In this document: positions 15,006 through 54,177 of the stretch, piece after piece
Position numbering within the stretch: position 1 is the first letter of the stretch
How the letters are laid out: every line of letters begins with the position of its first letter
NCBI RefSeq assembly: GCF_900130075.1
Contig: NZ_LT671418.1
Span: forward strand, 1,612,001-1,676,000
Direction of reading: 5' to 3'
DNA: 64,000 nt
DNA from: Herminiimonas arsenitoxidans
Lineage (GTDB): Bacteria > Pseudomonadota > Gammaproteobacteria > Burkholderiales > Burkholderiaceae_D
Translations under genes and position numbers: made by a program
Notes under the pieces: generated by a model
What the model was told of the DNA's origin: nothing
What the model saw: the letters and a program-made list of their open reading frames with translations, nothing else
Databases searched by the model: none

Positions 15006-15674
15006 ATGACCAATACAGCCAAACCGAACAAGGCCGCTGCAGCACCCCATAGCGAAACGCCTCACCCGTTGATATCGCGCGAAGCCAGCGGTTCACTGAT
15101 AGAGCAAATCGTGCAACTGGTCACTGCGCGCATAGACGATAAATTGCTGCGCACCGGCGCACGCATGCCGTCGATCCGACAGTTCTCTGATCAGCACAAG
15201 GTGTCGCGCTTCACCGTAGTGGAAGCCTACGACCGTCTGGTCGCCGGCGGCTTGCTGGAATCGCGCCGCGGCTCCGGCTTCTATGTACGCGACCGCGCGC
15301 CTATGCTGGCACCACGCGCACAACGCACGAACACCGCGCCACAGCCAGTCGATGTGGTTTGGCTGGTGCGCAATATGTTCCGCCAGTTGCCACCGCAACA
15401 AATGCCCGGCGTCGGCCTCTTGCCCAACGAATGGTTGGATGGTGATCTGGTCGCCAATGCCTTGCGCGCCGTCAGCCGACAGAAGCTGTCTCTGCAATAC
15501 GGCAATCCACAAGGTTTCTTGCCGCTACGCCAGCAACTGCAATTGAAACTGGCCGAGCTGGAAATTTCCGCAACACCCGATCAGTTCGTCACCACCTTGG
15601 GTGTAACGCAAGCACTGGATCTGGTTGCACGTCATTACGTGCAACCCGGCGACACCATCTTTGTCGATGATCCT
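15006..15674 (+). pseudogene. MocR-type regulator, 5' part (gene split by the island)
   Basis: Codons 1-223 of a GntR/aminotransferase fusion regulator. The N-terminal winged helix is intact (MPSIRQFSDQHKVSRFTVVE, GLLESRRGSGFYVRD). The aminotransferase domain begins near residue 120 and reaches FVDDP, where homology stops. The frame then reads 24 residues of island DNA to a stop at 15744-15746. The other 263 residues are at 53386-54177. Added together the fragments give a 486-residue protein, against 487 for the island homologue at 15960. The truncated product would keep the DNA-binding domain, so it might still occupy lysE operator sites. Confidence 0.93.
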
Positions 15675-15678
15675 CCGC

Positions 15679-15691
15679 TTATATTGACCTT
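15679..15691 (+). repeat. island terminal inverted repeat, left
   Basis: TTATATTGACCTT matches the inward-reading right end (TTATCTTTACTTT) at 10 of 13 positions. It begins 4 bp inside the left boundary. Confidence 0.6.
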
Positions 15692-15959
15692 ATTTTGTCC
15701 CAAAAGAATTGGAAAGCGGGTTAGCCTCGGAAATAATGTTTATTAAGCAGTGATACATTTAAATTGTCTCAGATAATGGCGACACAAATTATGTGGTCAG
15801 TAAGCTACACCGTCGCACTCAAGCGACGAAGTAATGCAAGTGAGTATTCCCCATAAAAGTAGTCACGACGGATTATTCAAGCTGAAATGGACAGACGCTC
15901 TCGAAAAGAAGGTCGATTCGCCTGTGCATCGTATAGCGCGTGAAGTCCCGGCAGATTGC

Positions 15960-17423
15960 TTACACGCCAAATAAATTAGAGAAACACCGCAATACTGCGG
16001 CATCCTGCATAGCACCTACATTTATTCTCATCCAATGAGAGGCGGCTTGAGTTGGAGAGAACAACGCTCCAGGGGCTAACAACACTCCCTCGCGCATGGC
16101 ACGTTCAGCAAAAACATTTGTGTCAGATTCAGTATCTACCCAAAGAAACATTCCAGCAGAAGGCGCGGTAGGCACCGACAATCCAAATTTCTCCAATGAT
16201 CTTGTCGCCTCCTCACGTGCTGTATCGAGTCGAAGGCGCAATCGCTGAACGTGTTTTCGGTAATATCCTTCTGCAAGAATTTTATAGACTACCCGTTCTC
16301 CAACTTCCGACGAAGTTAAAGTTGCCAAAATTTTTCTATCTGTGAGTTGCCGTGCAATTTCAGCTGAACAAGCTATGAAGCCCACGCGAAGGTTCGCTGC
16401 GAGAGTTTTAGAAAATCCACCAAGATATATAACTCGATTTAGCTGATCTAAAGTTGCAACTCGTGTACCCGGTTGTTGATTACCATCAGGTTCGAGATCA
16501 CAATAAATGTCGTCTTCGACGATCGTGAAATCAAATTTTTCCGCAATATTTAATACTCGAAAAGCTTTGGACGACGATAGTGAAGTAGATGTCGGATTAT
16601 GAAGAATTGAGTTAAGTACGTACAACTTAGGGCGATGCAGTTCAGCCAAATGTTCCAACGCTGCAATATCGGGGCCATCGGCCTCTCGCGGAACGCCAAT
16701 TACTTTTGCCCCCACCGAGGCAAAACTGGCGAACATAAGAAACCAAGCAGGGTCATCTACGAATACAACATCACCAGGCGCAAGAAAATGGCGCGCAACT
16801 ATGTCTAATCCTTGAGTGACACCAGAAGTTGTGACTATCTGTTCAGGCGTTGCACCAATCTCAATCTCAGCGAGCTTTAACTGAAGTTGCTGGCGAAGTG
16901 GCAAATAGCCTTCAGGAGTTCCGTAATGAAATATCTGATTAGAACTCTCACGCGCAACAGAACGAAAACTATTTCCAACAATTCCTGTACTCATCCATTC
17001 GGGAGGGAGTAATCCCGAACCAGGCATCGCTTGCGCTGGATGCTGACGAAACATAGTTCGTACTAACCATGCTATGTCTAAATGCTGTGGAGCGGCAATA
17101 TCTGAGCGAGCCGAACTTCTTGGAATAGTTATATGCCTACGTTCCTTTACGAAAAAACCGGAACCGCGGCGAGAGTCCAAATACCCATTCGCTACTAGTC
17201 GATCATATGCTTCTACAACAGTAAATTTTGAGATTGAATATTCTTCAGCACAAACACGAATTGAAGGTAATTTAACACCGCTTCTAATAACCTTGTCATC
17301 AATCTTCGACTGAATCTGCATTACCAATTGCTGCACCAAAGAAGTATTGCCATCCTTCGTCAAAAAGTCAGGTCCCGAGATCGTTGGATCTCGCTTGATT
17401 AAAGAATTAATTCGTTTCGACAT
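15960..17423 (-). CDS. MocR-type regulator, island-borne homologue of the disrupted gene
   Basis: An intact 487-residue GntR-type winged helix (KLPSIRVCAEEYSISKFTVVE, SRRGSGFFVKE) fused to a fold-type I aminotransferase domain. The PLP-lysine motif is GGFSKTLAANLRVGF. By eye it is roughly 60% identical over its full length to the regulator split by the island, and it has the same architecture to within one residue. It is antisense to the split gene and only about 285 bp inside the left island end. Its coding sequence contains the same target region in diverged form (GATGACCCTGCTTGG). A trans-complementing or replacement role is inferred. Confidence 0.92.
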   Translation of the reverse strand: MSKRINSLIKRDPTISGPDFLTKDGNTSLVQQLVMQIQSKIDDKVIRSGVKLPSIRVCAEEYSISKFTVVEAYDRLVANGYLDSRRGSGFFVKERRHITIPRSSARSDIAAPQHLDIAWLVRTMFRQHPAQAMPGSGLLPPEWMSTGIVGNSFRSVARESSNQIFHYGTPEGYLPLRQQLQLKLAEIEIGATPEQIVTTSGVTQGLDIVARHFLAPGDVVFVDDPAWFLMFASFASVGAKVIGVPREADGPDIAALEHLAELHRPKLYVLNSILHNPTSTSLSSSKAFRVLNIAEKFDFTIVEDDIYCDLEPDGNQQPGTRVATLDQLNRVIYLGGFSKTLAANLRVGFIACSAEIARQLTDRKILATLTSSEVGERVVYKILAEGYYRKHVQRLRLRLDTAREEATRSLEKFGLSVPTAPSAGMFLWVDTESDTNVFAERAMREGVLLAPGALFSPTQAASHWMRINVGAMQDAAVLRCFSNLFGV

Positions 17424-17519
17424 TTCTCAAATTATCCTTAGTACAACATCAAAAAACAGCTCGAGCCTTAGCCTAGAAGGTGCAACAGTTAGACAAATCA
17501 AACATGCGGTGAATTATCC

Positions 17520-17804
17520 TTACGTTTTGATATTCATAGCCTTCAACTCACCATCAACACGAAGAAGTAATTCTTTATATTTGACATTTTCTGCTCTGCA
17601 ATACGCCAATATCAGTAGTGTCGCGGGGTGCACTTCCATCACACCGGACAACTCATCAACCTTTTCCAAGGTGGGTGATTTCATACTTCGTTCTAGGCTA
17701 CTTAAATAAGTTCTGCTCGATACATCCGAAAAATCCTCTTGCGTCAGGCCTTTTCTAGTCCTTAACTCCCGCAGTGCCGTCGCGAACCCATTTCGAGAAT
17801 TCAT
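17520..17804 (-). CDS. XRE-family HTH transcriptional regulator
   Basis: A 94-residue Cro/CI-type protein. I start at the ATG at 17804, which has GGGAGA 5 nt upstream. The frame stays open to 17873, but the upstream residues are not HTH-like. The HTH covers about residues 8-62 (LRELRTRKGLTQEDFSDVSS, YLSSLERSMKSPTLEKVDEL). The C-terminal tail is charged. It precedes the island MocR gene by 96 bp on the same strand and is divergent from the exonuclease gene. It may control left-end genes and itself: an inverted GAACACT/AGTGTTC pair lies upstream. Confidence 0.85.
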   Translation of the reverse strand: MNSRNGFATALRELRTRKGLTQEDFSDVSSRTYLSSLERSMKSPTLEKVDELSGVMEVHPATLLILAYCRAENVKYKELLLRVDGELKAMNIKT

Positions 17805-17840
17805 CCGTGTCTCCCATAAAAGACACGATGTACTCATAAC

Positions 17841-17871
17841 GAACACTTTAGAACTACAATCTATAGTGTTC
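17841..17871. promoter_or_regulatory. inverted repeat upstream of the XRE regulator
   Basis: GAACACT (17841-17847) and AGTGTTC (17865-17871) are 7-bp inverted arms 17 bp apart, in the divergent region between the XRE gene and the exonuclease gene. CTATAGTGTT within it recurs exactly at 47576-47585 near the other island end. Confidence 0.4.
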
Positions 17872-18011
17872 ATTTAGCTTTGCAGCATTGTGATCGTCAC
17901 TAGAGAAATAAGAAATTCCGGTGCATTCAATATTGATCGAAGGCGAGACCGACCAAACGAAACTTTTACCAAACTGGGCTAGCGATCCGGTATTTTAACT
18001 AGAGGGGCTGT

Positions 18012-18479
18012 ATGAATGTATTTCTAGATACTGAGTTCACGGATTTTCTTGAACCCCACCTTATCAGTTTAGGAATGGCATCCGAATACGGAGAGGATTT
18101 TTACGCGGAGGTTCCATACCCAGATTGCGCTTGCTCCACATTCGTACGTGAAGTAGTCGTGCCATTGTTGCGGAAAATTCCTCATTCATACGTCACTGTC
18201 GACAACCTTCATCTGGAAATTATTAAATGGCTTGAAATTGTCCGCCGGAACAAAGAGGAAGTTTTTATCTGCGTAGACTCTCAGATTGATTGGGATTTAT
18301 TTTGTGAGGCCTTGGATTGCCGCGTGCCGCCATGGTGTAACTATAAGCTAGTGAGCAACGAGATCGTCGAACTGATGCTTTACGATTTTTTTAAGCATTC
18401 CGGTTTGCCGGAGCATCACTCACTGTACGACGCCCAGGCGAATCGACACGCGTACCGTCCGCATCAACCAAAAAAATAA
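18012..18479 (+). CDS. DEDDh 3'-5' exonuclease, RNase T/Rv2179c-like
   Basis: A 155-residue protein beginning MNVFLDTEFTDF, where D6 and E8 form the first DEDD motif. A mid-protein Asp lies in VDSQIDWDLF. The last motif, HHSLYDAQANRHAY (about residues 134-147), supplies the catalytic His/Asp with the 'DA.AN' text seen in Rv2179c-like exoribonucleases. The ribosome-binding site AGAGGGG sits 7 nt upstream. The target nucleic acid is unknown. It is the first gene of a two-gene plus-strand unit at the left end, followed after about 180 bp by the zinc-ribbon protein gene. Confidence 0.8.
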   Translation: MNVFLDTEFTDFLEPHLISLGMASEYGEDFYAEVPYPDCACSTFVREVVVPLLRKIPHSYVTVDNLHLEIIKWLEIVRRNKEEVFICVDSQIDWDLFCEALDCRVPPWCNYKLVSNEIVELMLYDFFKHSGLPEHHSLYDAQANRHAYRPHQPKK

Positions 18480-18656
18480 TAATCATTGACATCATAAGTG
18501 CCCAGCACTTATCAAGGAATGCATGTTTATGTCAGTTCTTTCGTGGAACATGGTTCGAACGCAAGATAAGAATAGACAAAAAAATAGTGGTGCCGTATTC
18601 CGTCGACGTATCGTCGTCGATGCTGCATGAAAAATACTCAACGAGGGAGGGAGAAC

Positions 18657-20009
18657 GTGATAGACGTGGAAATTTATTCAGACGATCCGGACGATCATGT
18701 TTTGGTGGATCGCTATTGGGCAATGAATGAAGATGGAAAATTTAAAGAGAATGTTTCGAATCTTCTACCCCATAAGGAAATCAAAAATGTCCATCAACTA
18801 ACAGAACACATTTCTCAAGTTTCCCAAGCTTGGGATCGAGGGCAGATTTGCTCACATTGCGAAGGTTTTCATCAAGTATTCGTCCGTGCAGACGTAAAGC
18901 GAAGCAAACAAAAAATAAAGACGCCCTGCGCCGGTTGCCGAAACCTTGACGAAAAAAATCAACACGCAGAGAAATTACGACTCCGCGAACTTCTTGAAAA
19001 ACTTACAGAAGACAATCTAGCGACTGATTGTGAATATAGTGAGATTTCTGATGATGCTGCATTGATTCTTCTTGCATTACATCGAGCTATTAATCCTCGT
19101 TTGCTTTCCGGTACATTCATGTACCGGGACTGTGCAACTTTAACTCCATCAGACTCCGATTTTTTTATCGATAAGTTATGCAATTCTAGAATTCTCTTGC
19201 CTCACTATCTGGCCGCCAAAGACGGCACTTACAGTCTTAACGGTGATGAAATATGGCACTACCCTGCACAAGCCTGCTTCTTCCTTGTCCCCGATTCCAA
19301 GCTTGGTAAAAGCGAGATTGCATTATCAATATTAGAAAACCGCAACTATAAAGATAATCTTGCCCTCCGAAATCTATGGCTCGACTACGCTGTAGCAGAC
19401 TGCCATCGATACCTCATAGATCAATGCAACGACTACGACTTCCACCTAGAAGAAGAAGAGTTAAATCAGATGAAAAGCATCTTTAGAACAGCACTTGAAA
19501 TTTATAGCGTAAGCGAGCTGTGGTCGATGGTCTGGATGATAGTCAAAGATGCCGCAAGCCTTTCACAAAAAACTTACTCCAACAGTCGAAAAGCCTCGGC
19601 AACGATACCTGGTAAAGCGCAACGATTCCTCGTTAAAGTATCAAAAGGTGAAAACACATTAAAGCAATGGGCTAGACGCGAACAACATACAGAGGGAACG
19701 CTTGGCCAAGTTTTTTGGGATTACTTCAGCATAGATGCAGCCACCACCGGATGTGAAGTATTTCGCATATTTGACGTCGTTCCGAGTTCAGATAACGTCG
19801 GTCCTCTTATTTTGCCGTCGAAAGAATTAATGGCAAAAGCTCGAGCGGATGGGATAGAGGCAGAGGTTCTTATTTGCTTGGCAGGCTCTATTCGCCAAGG
19901 TCTTAGCGTCATAGAAGCTATTCATGAAGTACTGCGACAATATTCGGGACTTGGATTGCCCCAAGGAAGTGAGTTTGATGAAGAGCCCGAAGACCTCGGT
20001 AACGACTGA
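18657..20009 (+). CDS. unknown protein with a CxxC-CxxC zinc-ribbon-like region
   Basis: About 450 residues, which I do not recognise. I choose the GTG at 18657 because GAGGGAGGGAG ends 2 nt before it; an in-frame ATG at 18627 has no such site. Near the N-terminus two CxxC knuckles (ICSHCEGFH and PCAGCRN, about 27 residues apart) suggest zinc binding. The middle is predicted helical, with a Trp-rich stretch (ELWSMVWMIVKD). The C-terminus is acidic (EFDEEPEDLGND). It has no enzyme motif, signal or membrane segment. It belongs to the AT-rich left module of the island beside the exonuclease. Confidence 0.65.
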   Translation: MIDVEIYSDDPDDHVLVDRYWAMNEDGKFKENVSNLLPHKEIKNVHQLTEHISQVSQAWDRGQICSHCEGFHQVFVRADVKRSKQKIKTPCAGCRNLDEKNQHAEKLRLRELLEKLTEDNLATDCEYSEISDDAALILLALHRAINPRLLSGTFMYRDCATLTPSDSDFFIDKLCNSRILLPHYLAAKDGTYSLNGDEIWHYPAQACFFLVPDSKLGKSEIALSILENRNYKDNLALRNLWLDYAVADCHRYLIDQCNDYDFHLEEEELNQMKSIFRTALEIYSVSELWSMVWMIVKDAASLSQKTYSNSRKASATIPGKAQRFLVKVSKGENTLKQWARREQHTEGTLGQVFWDYFSIDAATTGCEVFRIFDVVPSSDNVGPLILPSKELMAKARADGIEAEVLICLAGSIRQGLSVIEAIHEVLRQYSGLGLPQGSEFDEEPEDLGND

Positions 20010-20193
20010 TCTTATAGAACTGTAGGAAGAGCTTGCCGCATGATTGCATCGTAAAGTTCACACTGACTGCTTTTCTTAATACCCTGTATAGAAACAGGAC
20101 GTTGCGCACACCGTATCGAAAGCAAAGCATGGAACGTCCACTATTATGCCGTGGCAGACATCCTTTACGACCGCAATCGGACATCGGCTTCCA

Positions 20194-20249: not shown

Positions 20250-21251
20250 CTACTCCTTTGGGTCGCGACGTAACAACTCGGCAACGGAGACGCCGATTTC
20301 AGCGTCACCACCGAAAGCTGTACCAGTTTTCTTGTTGGTGAAATTAGTCAACGCGTGTTTATAATCCTTGTCGGTCAAAGGAATATATTTCACTTCCTTT
20401 ACCAGCTTCTGTGCGTTCTTCAAGTAGAACTCGACGAACTCTTTGACTTCGCTTCTTTCGGCCGCCTTCACACTTACATAGATAAACAACGGGCGTGCAA
20501 GCGGCTGGTAAGTGCCGTCCATGACGGATTTCACAGAAGGTGCTACAGCAGGTTTGCCTGCCTTATGGACGATCGGAACAACTTTGAGACGCTTGCTGTT
20601 ATCGAGGTAATACGCATAGCCAAAATAGCCGATCGCATTTACGTCACGTGCAACACCTTGCACGACAACATTGTCGTCTTCCGACGATGTGTAGTCAGTA
20701 CGGCTGGACTTTGTCTTGCCCATAATCGCATCTGTGAAGTAATCAAATGTGCCGGAGTCTGCGCCTGCGCCAAATAATTTGATCGGGGCATCAGGCCAAG
20801 CTGGATTGACTTGATTCCATTTGGTGATTGTTCCTTGTGCTGCCGGCTCCCACATCTTCTTCAGTTCTTCTACTGTGATTTTGGTCAAGAACTTATTTTT
20901 CGGATTTACAACTACCGTTAGTGCATCGAATGCGATTGGCAGCTCTACATACTTGATCCCGTTCTTTGCGCACTCATCCATTTCTTTTTTCAGGATTGGA
21001 CGGGAAGCATTTGAAATATCAGTTTCGCCTTTACAGAATTTTTTAAAGCCACCACCAGTGCCAGCAATACCAGTCGTCACTTTGACAGCGCCACTTTTCA
21101 TGTCCTGAAAGTCATCAGCGACAGCTTCTGTAATCGGGAACACGGTGCTGGAACCATCGATTTTGATAAATGTTTGTGCTTGTGCTGGTGCGACACACAA
21201 GGCAGTTGTCAATAATAACAGTGGCGACAGCGTTTGAAAACTAAGTTTCAT
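20250..21251 (-). CDS. PstS-like phosphate/oxyanion-binding protein (second copy)
   Basis: A 333-residue periplasmic binding protein with a signal peptide ([19 protein letters not shown]...AQAQ). PstS-fold anion-binding text is visible: [45 protein letters not shown] and [16 protein letters not shown]. It belongs to the PstS/SphX branch with SSTVFP rather than the branch of the operon-encoded PstS at 31362. It lies 53 bp after the PilJ-N protein gene on the same strand, with no pstCAB here. It may therefore present phosphate or arsenate to a sensor rather than to a permease, or it may feed the Pst permease 10 kb away. Confidence 0.88.
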
Positions 21252-21304
21252 GGCGAATCCTTTGTAGTTAAATACGGTGGTAAATCTGAGGGAATGTTTC
21301 TAAA

Positions 21305-22105
21305 TCATTTCCAGCGAGCGGACGTCAAACTATCAAGCGGTAGTGCATAGCTGATGTGAACAATTTCAATCATTTGCTCCGCAATTCGGTCGCTGGTTGT
21401 AGCGATATTGCGAAGTTCGGTTTGATTGGTGCCTGCTGAAGTCAGGGCAGTTTGATAGAAGATCCATTGTTGACGGGCCAACTCAACGCGTGAACTCAGT
21501 AGCCGATCAGAACCTGCTTCTTCGGCCAGTAGATTTAAACCGTTTTGAAACTCAATTCTTGATTGAATGAGATCGACTTGTAGGCCTTGCTTGGAAAGCA
21601 TCGATTTATCGAGAGATCTCAAGAGAACGATTTTTGCCATTCGCTGCGCGAGTGATGCCTGCCGTAATGCGAGTGCAACGACACGCGAACTGGTGTCGTT
21701 GGTATCAGACTCCAATGAAAAAGCCAGCGTATTGAGTTTGTTTAGTAAGTCTTCGTTGACGTCGTACATCACGCCTGCGTTGCTGGCGTTTAGTTTCGGC
21801 AATCCATCCATTTGACCAGTCAGGGCTATGTTGGCTCGCGTTAGTGCTCGTGTCGTTTTAGTAGACTTGTCCGCTAAACCATTGAGTTCCTGGCGCATTT
21901 TCAAAATGGAGGCAATCGAGCGCTCACGTTCGCGCTGCACCTGGTCACCGAGGATTCCCAGCGTCATTTGCAAACTCAGCTTGTAGCTACGTTCCGACTC
22001 GATTCGAAAAATTCCGACTGTCAATAAGGGAGGTATGGATTCTTTAATACTCGGAGCTGCAACTTTAGAAAATGCAGTTGTCGTGCCCGCTAAAGATAGG
22101 ATCAA
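21305..22105 (-). CDS. periplasmic PilJ-N/NarX-like sensor-domain protein
   Basis: About 266 residues, mostly helical. It has two copies of a 'type IV pili methyl-accepting chemotaxis transducer N-terminal' type unit. The diagnostic text is ALRQASLAQRMAKIVLL near residue 150, and ESERSYKLSLQMT at 36-48 may be the first unit. The frame's only start codon is TTG at 22105. In-frame codons upstream, back to a TAA, would complete a better signal peptide (FPRQATCFAAILILSLA). So the start is non-canonical, or the 5' end carries a mutation. No transmembrane or kinase domain is present. It precedes the PstS-like gene, forming a two-gene periplasmic unit. Confidence 0.7.
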   Translation of the reverse strand: MILSLAGTTTAFSKVAAPSIKESIPPLLTVGIFRIESERSYKLSLQMTLGILGDQVQRERERSIASILKMRQELNGLADKSTKTTRALTRANIALTGQMDGLPKLNASNAGVMYDVNEDLLNKLNTLAFSLESDTNDTSSRVVALALRQASLAQRMAKIVLLRSLDKSMLSKQGLQVDLIQSRIEFQNGLNLLAEEAGSDRLLSSRVELARQQWIFYQTALTSAGTNQTELRNIATTSDRIAEQMIEIVHISYALPLDSLTSARWK

Positions 22106-22503
22106 TATGGCTGCAAAGCAGGTCGCTTGACGTGGAAATTGGCGCCATTGTTACCAGGCAATAATTACAAGCGCTAATTACACTGCTAAAGCTGTATCAC
22201 ACACCGTTGTCCTGGGTCTCAATAGATTTTGTCGCAATTGCCTAATTAACAGATAACTTCTTCTTCAAATATTCACAATGTTTGATATGGCAGTCCACAA
22301 CTTTGAAACACTGTGAATGTTTCCTAACGTCACTTCCCTGTCACACGGCGCATCTACAATTCTAATTAATTGGTAATACGTATGTAATACGGCAGCTTTA
22401 GTCGTGAACCGCCTTATAAGCCGTAAATATTTTGTCCATCAAAACGCAGGTTACCTGCGCTATCAATCGCAAAAGAGAAAAATTGCAAATCGATTTCGAC
22501 ATC
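22106..22503. other. divergent control region between the PilJ-N/pstS unit and siaABCD
   Basis: An AT-rich region of about 400 bp with no gene of its own. It holds a Pho-box-like repeat at 22327-22344. A TTG at 22432 would extend SiaA, but lacks a ribosome-binding site. The inverted text CACTGTGAATG/CATTCACAATG-like near 22270-22320 was not resolved further. Confidence 0.4.
22327..22344 (+). promoter_or_regulatory. Pho-box-like site upstream of siaA
   Basis: ACGTCAC-TTCC-CTGTCAC has two heptamers spaced 4 bp apart, against the PhoB consensus CTGTCAT-N4-CTGTCAT. The second heptamer fits at six of seven positions and the first at four of seven. Confidence 0.45.
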
Positions 22504-23742
22504 ATGTCCGCCATTAACTCGGCGCAATCGAACACCTCTGCAAGAGCACTCGCCGTGGCTGTTCCGACCATTTCTTGCGATCAATCCAATGCGCAGGTGC
22601 TGGAGGTCTTTAGTCAAAACCGTGAGTTGATTAGCTTGCCAGTTCTAGAAGGCGAGCATCCGATTGGTTTAATAAGTCGAAATATATTCATGTCGCAAAT
22701 GTCCAAGCCGTACTACAGAGAGCTATACGAAAAGAAAACATGTATTGCGTTCATGGATAAAAACCCGCTGATCGTACAGGCGGATACTTATGTAGAAACG
22801 TTAGCTGCACTTGCAGTTGAATCAGGCGATAAAACTTTAGCAGATGGCTTTTTGGTTATTGAAAATGGTCAGTTTCTTGGCCTAGGTTCTGGCTTGGACC
22901 TCATGCGCATGATGGTTGATCTTCAAACAGAAAAGAACCTGCAGGTAATGCAAAGCATCGATTATGCGAGCACAATTCAGCGCGCAATGATGAGTACGTC
23001 TCGTAAAGCGATGAGCGCAACTCTAAAAGACGCCTGTTTGATTTGGGAACCGCGAGATTTGGTTGGCGGTGACTTTTACCATTTCGAACGTTTCAATGAA
23101 GGTTGGTTTGCCGCTGTTGCTGATTGCACGGGGCATGGAGTTCCTGGTGCCTTTTTAACTCTGATCGCTTCATCCTTATTGTCACAGGGCTTGAGCAAGT
23201 TGGGCCCTAAAGATCCTGCAATGCTTATGAGCGAAGTCAATCGCGGAATGAAACAGGCGCTTGGTCAATATGCTGACCAAAATCGTTTGTCAGAGTCTGA
23301 TGATGGTATGGATGCAGCATTCTTTTGGTTTAACGATGCGACATCTGAACTGACCTGCGCTAATGCAAAAGCGTCTTTATTTATTCTTATGCCAGATCAA
23401 GATGAAATCCAGACAATTGAGGGAAAACGCGTTGGAATTGGCTACGTCGACACCCCTAACGACATGTGCTGGGATAACAAAACAATTTCACTAACAGATG
23501 GTGCGATCTTGCTCAGTGCAACGGATGGCATTATTGACCAAATAGGCGGCATGAAGAATATCGCATTTGGCAAGCAACGCCTTCGCAAATTTATGCTCCG
23601 GCACCGGGACACATCTATGCCGCAGTTCGGACAGTTCTTAACATTAGAACAAAAAGCTTACCAAGGTTTGCACCGCCGTCGCGATGACATAACAGTCTTT
23701 GGCTTCCGGCTCAATACGCCGCATATCTCGCGATCAATTTAA
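22504..23742 (+). CDS. siaA: SiaA-like PP2C serine/threonine phosphatase with CBS-like sensor domain
   Basis: About 412 residues from ATG 22504. Residues 20-150 resemble a CBS-pair region (NRELISLPVLEGEHPIGLIS, NPLIVQADTYVETLAALAVE). The C-terminal SpoIIE-type PP2C domain shows metal motifs LVGGDFYHF, VADCTGHGVPGAFLT, DGMDAAFFW, SATDGIIDQ and RRDDITVFG. In Pseudomonas SiaA dephosphorylates SiaC and so controls the diguanylate cyclase SiaD; that protein is membrane-anchored with a HAMP domain. This version lacks membrane segments, so its input is cytoplasmic. It is the first gene of a siaABCD-type operon. Confidence 0.85.
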   Translation: MSAINSAQSNTSARALAVAVPTISCDQSNAQVLEVFSQNRELISLPVLEGEHPIGLISRNIFMSQMSKPYYRELYEKKTCIAFMDKNPLIVQADTYVETLAALAVESGDKTLADGFLVIENGQFLGLGSGLDLMRMMVDLQTEKNLQVMQSIDYASTIQRAMMSTSRKAMSATLKDACLIWEPRDLVGGDFYHFERFNEGWFAAVADCTGHGVPGAFLTLIASSLLSQGLSKLGPKDPAMLMSEVNRGMKQALGQYADQNRLSESDDGMDAAFFWFNDATSELTCANAKASLFILMPDQDEIQTIEGKRVGIGYVDTPNDMCWDNKTISLTDGAILLSATDGIIDQIGGMKNIAFGKQRLRKFMLRHRDTSMPQFGQFLTLEQKAYQGLHRRRDDITVFGFRLNTPHISRSI

Positions 23743-23771
23743 GTTAAAGCTACAAGGGAAGTCGAATCAAG

Positions 23772-24338: not shown

Positions 24339-24392
24339 TTGGATTGCAAACGATATCGACAGACAGTTAGCACTCTCACTGAAAAGTAAAAT

Positions 24393-24782
24393 ATGAATAA
24401 TCTTTATATCCCTGCAAGCTCGAGTTCACCAGAGGTAGATTTTCGCTTTGACGAACATCGATTGCTTTTGAAAGGTGAGGCATATCCAGAAAATGCGGCA
24501 GTGTTTTGGGGTGCAATCATTGCATCTTTACATATATATCTTGCTCAGGTTAGTGCTAGTCAGCAGATAACAGTGCAAGTCGCGCTCTCTTACTTCAATA
24601 GTTCGAGCACAAAAATGCTTTTCTCACTGTTTAGCGCATTGAATGACAAGGCACAGTCAGGCAATGCAATTATTCTGGATTGGTATCACGATGAAGAAGA
24701 CGAAACGATTTTCGAATTCGGGCAAGAAATACATGAAGACTTTCCAGAACTGACATTCAACGATCATGCGGTGAGAACTTAA
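24393..24782 (+). CDS. siaC: SiaC-like STAS-type phospho-regulator (DUF1987)
   Basis: 129 residues. DUF1987 proteins are small acidic STAS-like regulators. Unphosphorylated SiaC binds and activates the cyclase SiaD, and SiaA/SiaB set its phosphorylation. The likely phospho-site is Thr73 in YFNSSSTKMLF, matching the SSTK context of Pseudomonas SiaC. The stop overlaps the siaD start by one base (TAATG), so the two are translationally coupled. Confidence 0.83.
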   Translation: MNNLYIPASSSSPEVDFRFDEHRLLLKGEAYPENAAVFWGAIIASLHIYLAQVSASQQITVQVALSYFNSSSTKMLFSLFSALNDKAQSGNAIILDWYHDEEDETIFEFGQEIHEDFPELTFNDHAVRT

Positions 24783-42650: not shown

Positions 42651-42668
42651 AATAGGGAGATCATTATC

Positions 42669-45149: not shown

Positions 45150-45177
45150 TCAACCCTGATAACGTCATGGCCAGGCG

Positions 45178-45789: not shown

Positions 45790-45880
45790 TCGGTGAAGAG
45801 CTAGATGAAATAGCTCCCATCGCGACAATCATATTTATCTTCTATCTCCATTAGAAATTCACTTACCCGCTATAAGGAAC

Positions 45881-46204
45881 TTGTTCATGAAATATGTCAT
45901 TGCTATTGGTATTTTCTGCTTTTCATTTTCAGCCACGGCTGCAGTCGATGCGGATAAAGCAAAAGGTATCGCAGGTAAAAGTGCATGTATGAGCTGCCAC
46001 GGTATAAACAATAAAATTGTTGGACCTGGTTTCAATGAAATTGCTAATAAATACAAAGGAAATAAAACCGCAGTTGCAGCGCTAGCAAAAAAAGTTAAAG
46101 CTGGCGGTTCAGGTGTTTGGGGATCAACTCCTATGCCCGCTAATAATCTATCGGATGCAGATGCAAAACTTGTTGTTGAATGGATATTAGCTGGAGCGAA
46201 ATAG
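45881..46204 (+). CDS. aoxD: periplasmic c-type cytochrome of the aio operon
   Basis: 107 residues. Signal peptide MKYVIAIGIFCFSFSATAA, then one haem motif C34-M-S-C37-H38 and a Met ligand in STPMPANN. It is a class I c552-type cytochrome. It probably receives electrons from the AioB Rieske centre and hands them to the oxidase. It is the last gene of the operon (aoxD in the older naming), 91 bp after aoxC. Confidence 0.92.
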   Translation: MFMKYVIAIGIFCFSFSATAAVDADKAKGIAGKSACMSCHGINNKIVGPGFNEIANKYKGNKTAVAALAKKVKAGGSGVWGSTPMPANNLSDADAKLVVEWILAGAK

Positions 46205-46637
46205 TTGATATTCGAGAGGTGGATTTGCTCATTAAATTGCCCTTTTTTAACTAACCAACCACCTTTCGCCGTCATCGAAGGCGGCGACTCCACCATAAGA
46301 ACTGTCAAATCCGGTGGGCATATTCTTATTTATGTCCGACTTGACTGCTAGACGCTCGGTCATTGTAAAAATCGGCTTTGAAGTCTTTAAATAAATTGCC
46401 AATTGCATTTAGAAGCCATTATTGGCTGCAATGATCATCTCGTTGATCCCAAATTTTAATGCCAGCTATCAGCCGAATGTCAAACTAAAAGAGATTAACG
46501 AATTGAAGAGAGCGATTTACTTGCTGTTAGTGGCAATGTTGATGCTGATAAAGATAGAAAAACTGGCTGGAGCTGTTGGTGGTGAGGCTATGACAAGTTA
46601 AGATTTGAATTATCGTGTTTTACAACGAAAGCTTAAT
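46205..46637. other. intergenic region with possible 56-residue ORF
   Basis: About 430 bp with no clear gene. A frame from ATG 46431 to TAA 46601 encodes 56 residues with a hydrophobic patch (RAIYLLLVAMLMLIKIEKL), but no convincing ribosome-binding site. It may be a small membrane peptide or debris of a decayed gene. No terminator was found after aoxD. Confidence 0.3.
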
Positions 46638-47426
46638 ATGCGTCTTCTCATCCTATCTGATCTTCATCATGAGCTTTGGCGCGAGCGTGCTCCAGTCATT
46701 GATATTTCGGCTAGTCGACCAGATGCCGTTATTCTTGCTGGAGATATTAATACAGGAGCGAAAGCTGTTGAATGGGCAGCATGCACCTTTCCAAAAATAC
46801 CCGTACTTTATATACATGGAAACCATGAGTCGTACGGAAAAAATTTAGAGGAAGTCCAGAACGAAATAGAGTTAGCCTGTTACGCTGCAGGGAATATTCA
46901 CTTTCTGAATTGCGGTGAATACGTATTTCGTGACGTTCGATTTTTGGGCGCGACGATGTGGACAGATTTTCGTCTATTTGGTGATGATGACCGCCAAGCT
47001 GCTATGCGAGAAGCAGAAGCAGTAATGGTGGACTACAAGCGTATTAGATTAGCTAACAAGGGCTATCGCAAACTGCGAGCCGGCGACACGGCTCAATTTC
47101 ATTCTCTTCATAAGTCTTGGCTCAGAACAAAACTCGCAGAGTCATTTCCTGGAAAGACTGTCGTAATCACACATATGGCACCATCTATATTATCTGTCTC
47201 GGAAAGATACACATCCGATCCAATATCAGCGAGCTATGCTTCTCGTTTGGATGAGATGGTTAGTCAAAGTGATATTTGGATTCATGGTCATATGCATGAA
47301 TCATTTGACTATCGAATTGGAAAATGCCGAGTTGTATGCAATCCATGTGGTTATATGACGCGTAGTGGTGAAATCGAAAATGAACAGTTCGATCCCAATT
47401 TTATTATTGAAATTGATGAAATATAA
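46638..47426 (+). CDS. calcineurin-like metallophosphoesterase
   Basis: 262 residues from ATG 46638; a longer start at 46605 is less likely. All metal motifs are present in order: SDLHHELW, AGDINTG, HGNHESYG, ITHMAPS and HGHMHESFD. It is a soluble two-metal phosphoesterase with unknown substrate. It stands between the aio operon and the recombinase genes and seems to be unrelated cargo. Confidence 0.85.
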   Translation: MRLLILSDLHHELWRERAPVIDISASRPDAVILAGDINTGAKAVEWAACTFPKIPVLYIHGNHESYGKNLEEVQNEIELACYAAGNIHFLNCGEYVFRDVRFLGATMWTDFRLFGDDDRQAAMREAEAVMVDYKRIRLANKGYRKLRAGDTAQFHSLHKSWLRTKLAESFPGKTVVITHMAPSILSVSERYTSDPISASYASRLDEMVSQSDIWIHGHMHESFDYRIGKCRVVCNPCGYMTRSGEIENEQFDPNFIIEIDEI

Positions 47427-47652: not shown

Positions 47653-48105
47653 TCAGGAAACGAGTTTTGGCCCTACAACTTTTCTTTTAAGCTCCGCAAT
47701 TTCACGTTCCTTCTCTGCCAATGTCTTATCGCGCATATCGAGTGCTTGATTCAAAATAAATATTTCCTGCCTTGCGGCACGAATATTTTCGTCGTACTCT
47801 TCCTTATTTTGGATGGCTGCATTTTTTAGATTTTTATTGTCTGCCACGACATATCTGTACTTATCCTCAACAGCATGCGACTGTTCAACACTAGGTAAGA
47901 AATTTTCTTTTTTCTTATGCTTTTTGTATTCAAGAACAACGTTCGGATATCTATTAAAAGTCGCTCTCGACAGGCCAGCTTCATGCGCAATATTTTCCTG
48001 AGTCATTCGTCCGTCGGTTTTTTCTGAAATTCCAATAGCGATCCTATTTAACGCTGCAAACAATTGTGTCTCAGTTGAAGTTATTTCTTTGATGTTATCT
48101 GACAT
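47653..48105 (-). CDS. ginD: GinD/TnpC-like small HTH and coiled-coil protein
   Basis: 150 residues. The N-terminus carries an HTH (MTQENIAHEAGLSRATFNRYP, about residues 35-55; recognition LSRATFNRY). A long charged coiled coil follows (YKKHKKKENF, RAARQEIFILNQALDMRDKTLAEKEREIAELKRK; key ending AEKEREIAELKRK). The plan resembles TnpC of Tn554 and the fourth gene of GInt islands, accessory DNA-binding proteins for recombination. It lies 2 bp after ginC. Confidence 0.78.
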   Translation of the reverse strand: MSDNIKEITSTETQLFAALNRIAIGISEKTDGRMTQENIAHEAGLSRATFNRYPNVVLEYKKHKKKENFLPSVEQSHAVEDKYRYVVADNKNLKNAAIQNKEEYDENIRAARQEIFILNQALDMRDKTLAEKEREIAELKRKVVGPKLVS

Positions 48106-48107: not shown

Positions 48108-50087
48108 TTAACTGGTACCGTTCAATTGATTCAGAATACGGAGGGATTTCGCGATGTCATCTTTAAGCGCAATTTTTTGTGGCATGGAGACATTTTTATG
48201 ATTAAGCATCGCCTGGGCATCATTGATTTGAGCCTGCCAAATTGGTAGGTGATTTTTAGATATGCAACTGTTTGCACAGCGTTCAGGATAACAAGCGTTA
48301 ATAACTGGTTTATCTGGTAGGTCGGATTTCGTATTGCTTAGGCACAATGCGCGATCTCGCTGAAAGAGACAATAATTTAGAAGTCCAACATGAAGATTGC
48401 GGCGATTATTCTCAATAAAGTATTGAAGACTATTCTTTTTTAAGTCACCAGCCACTCCCTTAAATTCGTTAAGCAATTCATTTCCCCGTGCTCCAGCGAG
48501 AGCGCCTTCTTGAATATCGTCCCAAATCTGGGCGAGAAATTCCTCGTTTGCAGAAAATTCCTCAATAGCCAAATCACGAATCCAAGACTCATCTTTACCG
48601 GCATAACCCAAAAAAGTCGTCAATTTGACGTGCTTGTAGTGAAGCATTCCGGCAATCAATCCGAAAGGCTCTCGCGCAATTCGGCTTGCAAGGGTACGAC
48701 GGGGCTGCCGCATCGTAAAATTCCATTTCTTTCCGTCTACGAGTGGAAGTTGATATGCACCTTGTATCGCTACATCCAGCCGAGCCCCGAATTTTTTTAA
48801 TGCGAGTGACATAGCGTCTGGACCAAGAGGAAGAATTGAGCCTTTAGTTGAGCGTCCTAAGGAGTCCTTACGTAGGTCACTCTGAAATTGTTCGCCAGCC
48901 CCGCGATACCAGCTCCGAATAAATAATTCATTACAATCACGATGCGAACGAGCATAACTAGTAATTTTTTTTATAATATGGCACGCCTGATAAACCGGTC
49001 TATTCACTTCCCAAATTAGTTGTCGGTCGATATCACCCTTGACCATTCGGGAAATCACTGTGTATCGCTTTGATACACCGTCGACATCCGTTTGTTCTTG
49101 AAATCCGTGAACCTGAATCAGTGCCAACTCGGATTCACGAATTCCGGACAAACAAGAAACCACGACGAGGCAAGCTTCGTAAAGAGTAAATAATTCAAAT
49201 CTTAAGTCCTCAACGTTTGCCCACGTTTTGCGCCAGGCAATACCCGAATTCGGATTGATAGAAAAATCCACTATCGCGTTGAGTATCGGCTTTACTTCTC
49301 TCGTCGTGAAGTTGTTTGCAGCAAAGTTCTTGGCCTTACTCGCAACGGGCAATACATTTTTTCGTATGTTTTCTATGACACTCTGGCCAGCGAGTATGTC
49401 ATCTGAAAAATATTCTACGTAATCAAGAGCAGCACATAAAAAGCGATCCCAGACATCTTTGGGAATTAAAGGAGTTCTGTTCTCCTCAGTTCCTTGACGC
49501 TTTTTTCCCAAATATTTAAATATTGAATGCCCATGCAATGGACTTATCAGTAACGGCTGAGATACGCGCTTGTTATAGCTGTAATAGGATTGAAGTGCAC
49601 GAATTCGGACATCAACCCAATCCAGATCGGCAGCCTCAGTTTTAATTCTTTTCCCAAGGGCCTGACCTCTGCGGTTTATTAGCCAACTCACATAGTCTTG
49701 AATATCGTGATGACTGATATTGGCCCCCTCAAAGATTTTTCTCGATTGTAAATACTCAACAAATAATGCTAAGTAACGAGCCTCATGTTGCACTGTCTTC
49801 ATATCACATGCGTAGTTTTCCCCAATGGGATGGTACAGACGGGCATATGAATATTCCATAATGGATATTGCGATCAAATAATGAGTTTCCCAAACATTAG
49901 AAAAGATACTCTGCCAGTTGACCTTCGCCCCCTTAATTAAGGTTCTCGATTCGACTAAATCCGTTTGATCCCAAATCAAGTCACTAAATACGGAAAGTCG
50001 CCCGATTGGGGAATCCGGAGGTACAAGTTTACTAACGATTTTTAACTCAATAGGAGCTCTGTGCTGCGGATAGCATGCGTTACTCAT
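48108..50087 (-). CDS. ginC: tyrosine recombinase GinC
   Basis: 659 residues, a large integrase-like protein. The catalytic domain is in the second half: box I Arg in LSGIRESELALIQV, box II in TMRQPRRTLASRIARE, and the final LHYKHVKLTTFLGY with the candidate nucleophilic Tyr. The C-terminus is cysteine-rich (CLFQRDRALCLSN, ACYPERCANSC), suggesting metal binding. It starts at 50087 by a 1-bp overlap with ginB. It is the third recombinase of the operon. Confidence 0.85.
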   Translation of the reverse strand: MSNACYPQHRAPIELKIVSKLVPPDSPIGRLSVFSDLIWDQTDLVESRTLIKGAKVNWQSIFSNVWETHYLIAISIMEYSYARLYHPIGENYACDMKTVQHEARYLALFVEYLQSRKIFEGANISHHDIQDYVSWLINRRGQALGKRIKTEAADLDWVDVRIRALQSYYSYNKRVSQPLLISPLHGHSIFKYLGKKRQGTEENRTPLIPKDVWDRFLCAALDYVEYFSDDILAGQSVIENIRKNVLPVASKAKNFAANNFTTREVKPILNAIVDFSINPNSGIAWRKTWANVEDLRFELFTLYEACLVVVSCLSGIRESELALIQVHGFQEQTDVDGVSKRYTVISRMVKGDIDRQLIWEVNRPVYQACHIIKKITSYARSHRDCNELFIRSWYRGAGEQFQSDLRKDSLGRSTKGSILPLGPDAMSLALKKFGARLDVAIQGAYQLPLVDGKKWNFTMRQPRRTLASRIAREPFGLIAGMLHYKHVKLTTFLGYAGKDESWIRDLAIEEFSANEEFLAQIWDDIQEGALAGARGNELLNEFKGVAGDLKKNSLQYFIENNRRNLHVGLLNYCLFQRDRALCLSNTKSDLPDKPVINACYPERCANSCISKNHLPIWQAQINDAQAMLNHKNVSMPQKIALKDDIAKSLRILNQLNGTS

Positions 50088-52045
50088 TAAGCCTCCCTTA
50101 AATGAGGGGAAACATAAAATGGCACTTCTTCAGCTTGAATTTTTGCCCATTCCAGGGTTGTAGTTGGGAATCTTGGAAGAATAGATTTAGTAATTGCAGA
50201 ATAAGGAAGACCGAATTTATGACTCCAATCAATAGGGCTCAGCAGCTTCCGTTGCTCCTCCATGAACGATTTAAACTTCACAAGACGAGGCAAGATTCGA
50301 CTTGTCCACAGTGCATTTTCACAACTAAAGCATTGCCAAGGATCGTTGCACGGCGTCTCTGGTATACCCCCAGGCTTGTTGTAGAAGTCCCGGCAGCTCG
50401 CTATAAACACGTCTTGTTCTCCAGACAGAATTGAAACGATTTTTTCTTCTGACTCAGAAAGTTGTCTGGCTAGCGTTGCGATTTCTTCTTCTGTTTCGAC
50501 ATTCTTTAAAACGACTATTCCTCTAGCCTCTTGAACGACTTTGTCCTGTGCGATACGTATTGTTTGGTTGTGAACATGATGGGTTGCATCATTTGTCAGA
50601 TAATGAAAGGCCGTGGTATTTAAGGCTTGCTTACCATGATGTTTTAGCGTCTTGCTACTAACATTAGCCAAATTTCCGCTTTTCAAATATGCGTTTGTTG
50701 CAACTGTTTTGCGCGTCTGCCTGAAGCCAAACTTCAAAAACTCACCATTTCGATCACGTAAATTATGTGCCTCCATAAAACCAATCAAAGTATAAGATCC
50801 TTGAATTAGTCCGTTTGAAACATACATTGTCGCTTCATATGTCAACACGGCTGCTTGTCCCAGATACGGAGAGCCCGGGCTAGCTTTTCGATGTGCCAGC
50901 CACAACTGATTTTTTGCGTCTTCGTTTGCGAATGGAACAAGTGACTCGGTTATTTTTAACACCAACTTAATCAAGGCAATCGGAGATGTACTACCGCGAT
51001 TAGAAAGTGCGATCTGCATTTGTTCATGGCTACCGCGCTGTTTTTTGAACTCGACTATCGTTTTGCCACCTTCTTCACCTTTTAAGCAATCACGTGTCAA
51101 AGTCAGCAAAGAGTCAGCATTCAGACCACTCTTTATGGAAAGGAGAACCATAAACGGGACTAGATCCTTATAACTTGGGTATAGATGAGATATGAGCTCC
51201 GAAGGAGTGTTGAAAGTACAGTTATCAGATGCAACACTTCGATTACTAAAAAAGCGAGATAGAAGACAGTTCCGCATCAAAGTACGAGAAGGAAACTGCC
51301 CTTTTAAAACGTTGACCAAATACCAAAGATTATTAGCTTTACTATTCCAGCCAGTGGTAAATATGGATTTTGAATTCCACGGTTGCTTAAAATGACCAAC
51401 TAAACGCGGATCCTGTCCTTGAGTTAATAACGTTTTTCCTAGTTCCAGCCTGTCAATAACCTCTGATATCTCTTTTTTTGCCGCATCAATAAGTTTCACT
51501 TGTTCGTCATGCGAGTAGGGCTGAACTGCGCAAGTAGTGGCATCACTGCGCCTAAGCGACCGCAACGGTATGTCCAAATCGCTGTTAACAGCCCCTGAAA
51601 CGGGTGAATCAACCGCTTGCAATATTTTTAATAAATTGGCGATACAAAGATAACTTCTCCCTGCAGTAGCGTTTCCAAAATTAGAGTGCAACCATTTTCT
51701 AAAATCGATCAATGTATCCAGAGTAAGATCTTTAGTACTCGTTTCCTTCGGAATCCAATCCGGTTTCATCTCATCCAGATATCTCACCAAGCGATTGAGA
51801 GAATCACGCTTTTGTCGTATTGCTTGAAAATGCTTCCCTGGTGAATTAATTACTTCACGATTCCACAGGACATGCATTAATGGGCCAAATAATTTTGGCC
51901 TCGAAGAACACTTTTGAAAAGTCAGTCCTCTACCTTCTCGAACTATTCCTGCTAGATCCCACTTCCAAGGCAATATTGACGGCATTAAAAACGTTTCGTT
52001 AAACTGAACGTCATTTACTGTAAATGGATTGTTTCGCGCTTTCAT
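50087..52045 (-). CDS. ginB: tyrosine recombinase GinB (TnpB of Tn554-like)
   Basis: 652 residues. The integrase fold is recognisable, but the box I arginine seems replaced (SGLNADSLLTLTRD). Box II reads FRQTRKTVATNAYL, with Arg in the usual His place, and the C-terminal LKHHGKQALNTTAFHYL supplies His and the candidate Tyr. The tail has several cysteines (SCRDFYNKPGG, PCNDPWQCFSCEN). The large size and Cys tail match TnpB of Tn554. It may be a structural or specificity partner rather than an independent strand-cutting enzyme. It overlaps ginA by one base. Confidence 0.85.
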   Translation of the reverse strand: MKARNNPFTVNDVQFNETFLMPSILPWKWDLAGIVREGRGLTFQKCSSRPKLFGPLMHVLWNREVINSPGKHFQAIRQKRDSLNRLVRYLDEMKPDWIPKETSTKDLTLDTLIDFRKWLHSNFGNATAGRSYLCIANLLKILQAVDSPVSGAVNSDLDIPLRSLRRSDATTCAVQPYSHDEQVKLIDAAKKEISEVIDRLELGKTLLTQGQDPRLVGHFKQPWNSKSIFTTGWNSKANNLWYLVNVLKGQFPSRTLMRNCLLSRFFSNRSVASDNCTFNTPSELISHLYPSYKDLVPFMVLLSIKSGLNADSLLTLTRDCLKGEEGGKTIVEFKKQRGSHEQMQIALSNRGSTSPIALIKLVLKITESLVPFANEDAKNQLWLAHRKASPGSPYLGQAAVLTYEATMYVSNGLIQGSYTLIGFMEAHNLRDRNGEFLKFGFRQTRKTVATNAYLKSGNLANVSSKTLKHHGKQALNTTAFHYLTNDATHHVHNQTIRIAQDKVVQEARGIVVLKNVETEEEIATLARQLSESEEKIVSILSGEQDVFIASCRDFYNKPGGIPETPCNDPWQCFSCENALWTSRILPRLVKFKSFMEEQRKLLSPIDWSHKFGLPYSAITKSILPRFPTTTLEWAKIQAEEVPFYVSPHLREA

Positions 52046-53280
52046 TACGACGACTCTCCAGATAACGAGCGCTCGTCAATTTCGAATCCCTCACAATCAC
52101 TGGAAATGTCAATCATGTCAGTTATTTCATCAACATAATCGAGATAGATAAACGTAGTCGTTACACATGCATGTCCCATCAACCGCGAAAGCACACGCAG
52201 TGGGTCGTAAACCATTCTTTTATATGCTTCACTTCTTGAATTAACAGGCACAGTTTGCCTTGTCAACATTTGTCGAATCATTCCGGAAAGCGTATAGATT
52301 GCATAACTATGACGCAGCATATGTGGATGCGTCTTGAAGCTGAATCCACTAACATCGCCTGCGACGCGCATCATCTTATAAAACGCACTGTATGTAGCTG
52401 GACGTCCCAATGAGGTCAGGAATAAAAAATCTTCATCCTTGATATCTGTATTGCCCTTTATTAAGCAGGCCTTCCTTCGCTTAATTGCATCGGCGCGATC
52501 CCATTCTATGTACCGCCTTACATCTCTTAACCAACTTTTTGGTACACGCACGGTGCGTTCTTTGTTACCTTTTCCAAGCACTGTTAGCGGGCATGTATTA
52601 AGACCATTGAAAAAAATACTGTCTGGATCTGGAAGCATCGACAGTTTGATGGTAACTGCCTCCTCTGCACGTAATCCGGTGCGAAATAAAAGTCTAACGT
52701 AAAGAGCATTTCGCAGCCCTTCCTTAGTAGCCATAATCCTTGGAAGATAGATTTCTAGGAAATCATGTTCAGTCATATATTTAATATCTTTATTACGAGA
52801 CCTTTCTTTAAGATTCGTTGAAGGGGTATGGGAAGTCTGGTTTAAATACGGCCCTGCCAACATTTTTGTTGTGTATTCGAAAGGAACACATTCAACATGC
52901 CCCTCTTGTTGAGCCCATTCATAAAACCGCCTTAATGCTGCAGCGAAAACATTCCAGGAAGCAGATGAGATTTTTAGCGGACCAGATTGAATTCTTCGTA
53001 ATCTGTAATAAACCAACCAATCTTCAGACGAGGCATTTCGCCATGTTTTCTCTCTTCTAATCAAGAATCGAAAAAATAAGCTAAGTTGCTCAGCATACGT
53101 ACGCCAGGTATTTGGACTCGGAGATCCAGGAGCAGCAAGAGATCTTAAAAAACTATTCAAAACTGCGTCGCATTGCCAATTTATATCTATGGTAAAAGGT
53201 TGTTGATCTACCAATCCCAGTTGCTCAATTAGGTGCGCCAAATGTGGGGTTCGATCTTGCTTCAAATAATAAATGTCCAA
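52045..53280 (-). CDS. ginA: tyrosine recombinase GinA (TnpA of Tn554-like)
   Basis: 411 residues with the complete catalytic set: Arg204 (TGLRAEEAV), Lys near 240 (LGKGNKERTV), His320 and Arg323 (HPHMLRHSYA), His370 (LMGHACV) and Tyr379 (TTTFIYLDY). The N-terminal SAM-like core-binding domain covers about 35-125. The start is TTG at 53280, with AAAGGA 8 nt upstream; no ATG or GTG fits. It is the first gene of ginABCD, about 105 bp from the right island end. Confidence 0.92.
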   Translation of the reverse strand: MDIYYLKQDRTPHLAHLIEQLGLVDQQPFTIDINWQCDAVLNSFLRSLAAPGSPSPNTWRTYAEQLSLFFRFLIRREKTWRNASSEDWLVYYRLRRIQSGPLKISSASWNVFAAALRRFYEWAQQEGHVECVPFEYTTKMLAGPYLNQTSHTPSTNLKERSRNKDIKYMTEHDFLEIYLPRIMATKEGLRNALYVRLLFRTGLRAEEAVTIKLSMLPDPDSIFFNGLNTCPLTVLGKGNKERTVRVPKSWLRDVRRYIEWDRADAIKRRKACLIKGNTDIKDEDFLFLTSLGRPATYSAFYKMMRVAGDVSGFSFKTHPHMLRHSYAIYTLSGMIRQMLTRQTVPVNSRSEAYKRMVYDPLRVLSRLMGHACVTTTFIYLDYVDEITDMIDISSDCEGFEIDERSLSGESS

Positions 53281-53370
53281 ACCGCGTTCCTTTGCACACG
53301 AAAATTAAATGTATTAAATACTAAATATTCCGGTGAATAAATAGGGATTTATCAATTGAGACATTCTTGA

Positions 53371-53383
53371 AAAGTAAAGATAA
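53371..53383 (-). repeat. island terminal inverted repeat, right
   Basis: Read inward it is TTATCTTTACTTT, matching the left repeat at 10 of 13 positions. It begins 2 bp inside the right boundary. Confidence 0.6.
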
Positions 53384-53385
53384 CA

Positions 53386-54177
53386 GCCTGGTTTCTGATG
53401 TTCGGTTCATTCGCAATGCTAGGTGCAAAAGTAGTGGGCATTCCGCGTCTATCCGATGGCCCGGATATCGCTCAGCTGGCAGAACTGGCTGCGTTACACC
53501 GGCCAAAATTATTCGTCATCAATTCCGTTCTGCACAATCCGACCTCGACCTCACTCTCTGCAGCCAAGGCGTTTCAGGTCTTGAAGATCGCCGAGCAATA
53601 CGATTTCATGATTGTCGAGGACGATATCTATTGCGATATGCATCCTGGTACTGCGGTACAGCCAGCCACACGCATAGCCGCACTCGACCAATTGAATCGC
53701 GTGATTTATCTGGGCGGATTTTCCAAAACACTGGCCGCCAATTTGCGCGTCGGCTTCATCGCCACCTCGCCAGAGATCGCCAAGCATTTGTGCGACCGCA
53801 AGATGCTGACCACGCTGACCACGACTGAGATTACCGAACGCGTGGTGTATCGCATCCTGTCCGAAGGACACTACCGCAAGCACGCCGACCGCCTGCGCAA
53901 CAAGCTAGATGCGGTGCGCGACAAGACCGTGCGACAAATGGAACGCATAGGTATCAAGATCAATATCAGCACACCAGCCGGTATGTTCGTCTGGACTGAT
54001 GTGGGCTGCGATAGCAATGCCCTGACCGAAAGAGCGATGGAGCATGGTTATCTGCTGGCGCCCGGCAGTCTGTTCTCGCCGAACCAGCTACCGTCGACCA
54101 ATATGCGCTTCAATGTGGCTGCCATGGCCGATCCCGGCATCATGCGCTTCCTGGAACGGGAGATAGGTCGATCTTGA
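53386..54177 (+). pseudogene. MocR-type regulator, 3' part (gene split by the island)
   Basis: Codons 224-486 of the split regulator, beginning AWFLMFGSF directly after the island. It contains the PLP-binding text FMIVEDDIYCDM and the lysine motif GGFSKTLAANLRVGF, and runs to the natural C-terminus. An internal ATG at 53398 could start a 259-residue aminotransferase-like fragment without DNA-binding domain. The frame joins the fragment at 15006-15674 precisely. Confidence 0.93.

Follow-up and report, generated by a model that had tools for sequence, protein, structure and literature searches.

A four-gene recombinase island that splits a MocR gene in Herminiimonas arsenitoxidans and carries a proposed stand-in for the broken gene

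Some genomic islands and prophages restore the end of the tRNA or protein gene that they split, so that DNA carried by the element offsets the cost of its insertion. Several kinds of site-specific element with more than one tyrosine recombinase have been described. SEs carry an intA-tfp-intB-srap array at one end, in which the second of the four genes encodes a protein (Tfp) without the RHRY residues; imperfect inverted terminal repeats of 13-19 bp lie around a 6-bp spacer, transfer runs through a strand-biased circle, and recombination leaves no empty site. On insertion, the six bases of the site itself go to the intA-proximal end and the foreign six to the distal end (main text of PMC10214605). 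SEs have been published as gammaproteobacterial only, with none in Betaproteobacteria, and have a median length of 15.7 kb. GInts have been reported in Betaproteobacteria and have a median length of 34.9 kb (figure from the main text of PMC10214605). They insert site-specifically, carry large adaptive cargo and possess, at one end, a co-directional operon of three tyrosine-recombinase-type genes and a small one, all four of which are needed for excision and integration; their flanks are imperfect direct repeats of 10-17 nt, and the first catalytic arginine is missing in the third protein, GinC, and present in the second (main text of PMC5385486). Tn554 combines several recombinases with a short exchange region and insertion without target duplication, using three genes (tnpA, tnpB and tnpC) and, according to the main text of PMC10214605, no large recombinase-fold second protein.

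The locus compared here with these systems lies in a 64,000-nt stretch of H. arsenitoxidans DNA (contig NZ_LT671418.1, positions 1,612,001-1,676,000), which we call the window and whose own coordinates are used throughout. An earlier note on this DNA had proposed that 223 and 264 codons of a MocR-type regulator gene flank a single island, that the joined pieces match an intact homologue, and that no base is lost, repeated or duplicated at the target. Both pieces were measured at these lengths, the 5' part at 15006-15674 (plus strand, 669 nt, 223 codons) and the 3' part at 53386-54177 (plus strand, 792 nt, 264 codons including the stop). Joined by script, they align with the intact gene of genome G009, presumably H. 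arsenicoxydans, over 1461 nt at 89.7% identity, and this empty-site alignment is ungapped, in agreement with the proposal. The junction was further compared among the best 20 loci, comprising the window (L007), a second split gene (genome G010, L013) and 18 unsplit relatives including G009; all 18 carry the uninterrupted orthologue with the anticipated DDPAWF-like junction, in the form DDP[A/G/S]W[F/Y]. In the 12 congeners searched, MocR is intact in nine, split in one (G010) and without a close match in two (G003, G005). GC content is 44.6% within the island versus 51.6% and 51.8% on its flanks. The target is a MocR gene and no tRNA gene, and the insertion has not duplicated it.

The ends of this one island can indeed be placed to within a few bases, at a 28-bp intA-proximal terminal repeat (GTTATCTTTACTTTTCAAGAATGTCTCA; 53357-53384, minus strand) and a 25-bp intA-distal one (CTTATATTGACCTTATTTTGTCCCA; 15678-15702, plus strand). 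The two are imperfect inverted repeats with 10 of 15 outer bases alike; their inner tips, TGTCTCA and TGTCCCA, agree in six of seven positions, and ATAA and TTAT face each other across six bases, as expected from the repeats and spacer of SEs. The exchange point itself can be placed only to within 6 bp (15673-15678 and 53384-53389). This bears on the earlier description of the insertion as falling exactly between two codons: similarity does stop there, but the strands need not have been cut there. The two junctions differ in the third base of the proline codon, T on the left and A on the right, so the codon boundary marks the limit of similarity and not necessarily the point of strand cutting. 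On the sequence evidence, the codon-boundary position of the insertion is incidental, and the ends are better drawn as repeats around 6 bp.

If the empty site is taken as CTGCCT, as in intact G009, hand counts give five of six matching bases for the intA-proximal exchange region (CAGCCT, 53384-53389) and three of six for the distal one (CTCCGC, 15673-15678). The corresponding counts for Herminiimonas fonticola against the intact gene of genome G002 are five and two of six. In these two pairs the six bases of the site are best matched at the intA-proximal end, which is the direction described for SEs. The DNA just inside both junctions is common to the window island and the H. fonticola island. 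The 28-bp proximal end, with its GTTA...GTCTC layout, also occurs in the four islands in dut and the Noviherbaspirillum island described below, and the distal GTCTC box in four of these five; the Aeromonas distal end has an outer GTTAT and lacks the TGTCTCA box.

The recombinase module consists of four adjacent co-directional genes on the minus strand, read from 53280 to 47653. The first (52045-53280) occupies the intA/ginA position and encodes a tyrosine recombinase of 411 aa that matches Pfam Phage_integrase. The second (50087-52045) encodes a 652-aa protein with a recombinase fold and asparagine in place of the first catalytic arginine, the third (48108-50087) a large tyrosine recombinase of 659 aa, and the fourth (47653-48105), in the Srap/GinD position, a protein of 150 aa. 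Neighbours among the first three overlap by a single base, and two bases separate the third gene from the fourth. All nine alignment rows of the second protein share the asparagine and keep R445 and Y482; all six rows of the third keep R317, R463, H486 and Y495. Searches of Pfam and NCBIfam returned no match for three of the four proteins, and those of solved-structure sequences none for the second or third. The AlphaFold model of the second protein (mean pLDDT 70) has XerH as its best match (E 8e-6, probability 1.0, TM only 0.26), and the poor model of the third (pLDDT 60) has XerA (E 0.004).

Counterparts of the module with four genes in the same order lie on plasmids of Paraburkholderia, Serratia, Sinorhizobium and Klebsiella. 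On pBPHYT01 of Paraburkholderia phytofirmans (L032, 442-11942), two four-gene modules stand in tandem, and on pSinA of Sinorhizobium sp. M14 (L034, 4262-12271) a module adjoins mercury genes, merBA among them. Alphaproteobacterial contigs of about 6.1-6.2 kb (L049, L055, L056, L064) carry a relative of the third protein; the open reading frames of L049 and L055 include little besides the module, and these small contigs are perhaps cargo-free elements present in several copies. Two further Herminiimonas genomes (G004, L005; G007, L006) contain distant partial matches, at 25-29% identity, to the second module protein. A genome-collection scan with that protein alone found no relative, and the viral contigs searched contained no module. 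Even samples by order and class, under strict limits, yielded the module in 1 of 399, 1 of 369 and 1 of 399, always in the genome of the window, H. fonticola not being among those sampled.

With four genes that include a large recombinase-fold second protein, the closest kinds of element are SEs and GInts. On the basis of published descriptions, we place the window island in the SE/GInt kind, with no choice made between the two. It resembles SEs in its terminal set of four genes, in which the degenerate recombinase stands between two catalytic ones and the small protein comes last. It differs from them in its second protein, which, unlike Tfp, keeps Arg II and the tyrosine, in its betaproteobacterial host and in its length of 37.7 kb. 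The likeness to GInts lies in the four-gene operon at one end, with three recombinase-type genes and a small one, the large adaptive cargo and the site-specific insertion. Here, however, the module is reversed with respect to the first arginine, which is missing in the second protein and present in the third; the candidate direct repeats, GATCCTCCGC and GATAACAGCC, pair weakly; and the window and dut islands strike mid-gene and bring a whole homologue of their target.

The Tn554-like transposition suggested earlier holds insofar as the island has several tyrosine recombinases and a small protein, together with a short exchange region and no target duplication. The strict Tn554 type does not, since it has no place for four genes or the large degenerate second protein, and the target here is a MocR gene; we therefore consider a Tn554-family transposon highly improbable. 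RIT elements were also considered and rejected, as they require three recombinases of 315-410 aa with a catalytic tyrosine and 34-bp repeats, whereas the proteins here measure 411, 652 and 659 aa, a fourth gene is present and the ends are 28 and 25 bp. A single-integrase element is ruled out by gene content.

We think it likely that the island is a site-specific element of the SE/GInt kind whose last gene at the distal end is a stand-in for the broken host gene. In the mechanism that we propose, the element would extend from about 15678 to 53384, with the module at its right end and the arsenic cargo between the module and the far end. The two catalytic recombinases, the degenerate recombinase-fold protein encoded between them and the small helper would recombine the 28- and 25-bp ends with the host MocR site across the 6-bp region. 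Transfer would pass through a circle, a route that leaves no target bases lost or duplicated, and the exchange would follow a presumed rule for the six bases. The homologue at the distal end, which belongs to a separate lineage, would lower the cost of insertion. Unlike the islands and prophages that replace the tip of the gene they split, such an element would offer a whole divergent gene at its far end.

The stand-in reading draws on related islands. Insertion targets were determined for the six best relatives among the best 80 of 224; the remaining 74 loci are mostly from Alphaproteobacteria, with open reading frames listed for 29. One of the six is the H. fonticola island, one lies in a histone-deacetylase-type gene (L038), and four lie in dut (L039, L040, L041, L095). 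The dut-splitting islands come from Aeromonas, Massilia and two Chromobacterium, and Pfam models confirm that the split gene is dut. The dUTPase model has exactly three matches in each of these four genomes: the N-terminal part, the C-terminal part and a full copy, which in all four islands adjoins the C-terminal part on the intA-distal side and is the last gene of the island. No other full dut was found with this model in the four genomes. The island genes stop 87-120 bp from the distal end and do not contain the target DNA of the host. Identity among them, over three genera, is 72-98%, against 49-54% to the split host pieces.

As a control, 61 genomes of one host family were searched; dut has one match in 58 and two in one (G840), and the pattern of split plus full dut occurs in two, both of them islands already known. 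In E. coli genomes, the island dut used as query matches one place in 5374 of 5426, on the ordinary dut and over bases 632-699 of 701 only. In E. coli, dut is indispensable. This indispensability, together with the lack of any other full dut in the four genomes, makes a stand-in the plain reading, and the view that the dut islands carry a substitute for the gene they break is well supported by these sequence comparisons. The terminal homologues might instead be passive by-products, captured from earlier hosts through imprecise excision. In favour of capture, ordinary Burkholderiales dUTPases are among the near relatives of the island dUTPases, at about 80%. Against it, the island genes are alike across genera and devoid of the host's target DNA, and each is complete and set slightly inward of the end, unjoined to target remnants; we regard capture as quite unlikely.

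If the dut islands are read as carrying stand-ins, an island can break a normally indispensable gene, after which its host depends on retaining the island, and the divergent copy itself is no target. Such an element would be a natural counterpart of 'cleave and rescue'. The reading would also explain how an element can afford a mid-gene target in an indispensable gene, and suggests element addiction. No account of dut insertion or of a carried target copy was found in the open-access literature, most subscription papers and supplements lying outside this scope; the words 'dut' and 'dUTP' are absent from the main texts of PMC10214605 and PMC5385486.

In the window island, the proposed stand-in (15960-17423, minus strand) encodes a MocR homologue of 487 aa, and its stop codon lies 282 bp short of the distal end. 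This terminal gene has its 3' end toward the island end and runs antiparallel to the host gene; the island dut is oriented differently with respect to its split gene. It is 63% identical to the C-terminal part of the broken gene, and a near-copy of the target DNA persists in it at the homologous place. A clade with support of 99/96 unites it with the H. fonticola copy and four proteins from databases; the Oxalobacteraceae orthologues form a clade of their own (95/96), and the sister relation of the island and host clades is weakly supported (82/50). Between the two island copies, 55 of 79 differences fall at third codon positions, which indicates constraint. From its terminal position, the 3' end facing the terminus, its ancestry and this constraint, we infer that the island MocR may replace the host protein.

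A less probable but substantial alternative accepts the element as described and a true stand-in in the dut islands only, and takes the MocR homologue to be ordinary cargo that resembles the target by chance. MocR-type genes are common, with six matches in the genome of the window, and the island gene is divergent to a 155-aa gene that is also found in H. fonticola and that it may serve. Yet the three other matches listed are only 25-26% identical, as against the 63% of the island gene, which moreover has the terminal position and outward 3' end of the homologue in all four dut islands and was kept in H. fonticola while most other cargo differs. The alternative is also favoured by the Noviherbaspirillum island in the deacetylase gene (L038), which contains no copy of its target, intact relatives being present on other contigs; this island counts against the stand-in as a general rule. 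MocR and dut represent one evolutionary case each and are not independent replicates. The broader proposition, that a lineage of four-gene recombinase islands enters genes mid-gene and carries a divergent, working homologue of the target as its last gene, seems to us evenly balanced between right and wrong.

The second split gene, in H. fonticola S-94 (G010), is interrupted at the same codon as that of the window. The second protein of its module is 85% identical to that of the window, and the distal genes are shared over window positions 15958-20066 at 88.7-93.8% DNA identity. The remaining cargo of the H. fonticola island (L027, L028, L029) comprises chromate resistance, RND efflux and EamA genes and no arsenic genes, so that related backbones at a single site bear different metal cargo. 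The third recombinase gene of this island is divided over two contigs, one of which has a gene for a Mu-type transposase close to the break. One of its cargo genes, ThiF/DUF6791 by Pfam, gave the sole PADLOC matches (E1-E2 models, best E 8e-7).

The tree of the host MocR genes pairs the split gene of the window with G009 (98/90) and that of G010 with G002 (96/89), although the bootstrap is not fully settled. Since the two broken genes thus have different intact sisters, the site was probably hit twice, and two recent insertions offer the simplest reading. A single ancient insertion in an ancestral Herminiimonas, retained by two species and precisely lost from the others, would fit the third-position divergence between the modules (128/412 and 213/653 in two recombinase genes), which is near that of the host gene (96/260). 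It would, however, require precise loss in at least the two sister lineages, and besides the tree it has against it that third positions account for most differences between the split pieces and their intact sisters (59 of 68 and 64 of 75), the pattern of a recently broken gene; we hold it to be rather improbable. Two insertions remain our preferred reading. At third positions the two island MocR genes differ far less (55/488) than the recombinase genes, which indicates that not all parts of the islands share one history.

Next to the island MocR, two genes of 155 and 460 aa (18012-20009, plus strand) without Pfam or PADLOC match are also present in the H. fonticola island. The first block of cargo proper (20250-37413) contains a binding protein, a SpoIIE/DUF6272/SiaC/GGDEF module, pst-type genes with PhoU and a response regulator, as well as ArsB, MFS, ArsC, FMN reductase and LMW phosphatase genes. 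The second (37438-47426) encodes a sigma-54 response regulator, a histidine kinase, a phosphonate-type binding protein, a nitroreductase and a phosphoesterase, together with the small and large subunits of arsenite oxidase (42129-45149). Horizontal transfer of ars and pst genes in H. arsenitoxidans AS8 has already been suspected (PMC5670224). The arsenite-oxidation island now has exact ends and a likely mover, which would link the aio genes to recombination of the SE/GInt type.

Among the 30 genomes searched, aioA occurs in two, that of the window and G009. The G009 gene is 98% identical but lies elsewhere in the chromosome (L154, L155), within an arsenic gene block that is rearranged and has 69-87% DNA identity to that of the window; the G009 genome yields no match to the second module protein. 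In the first cargo block, genes for a SpoIIE-type phosphatase, DUF6272, SiaC (by Pfam) and GGDEF proteins stand in a row at 22432-25558, an arrangement that we take to resemble a SiaABCD-type signalling module.
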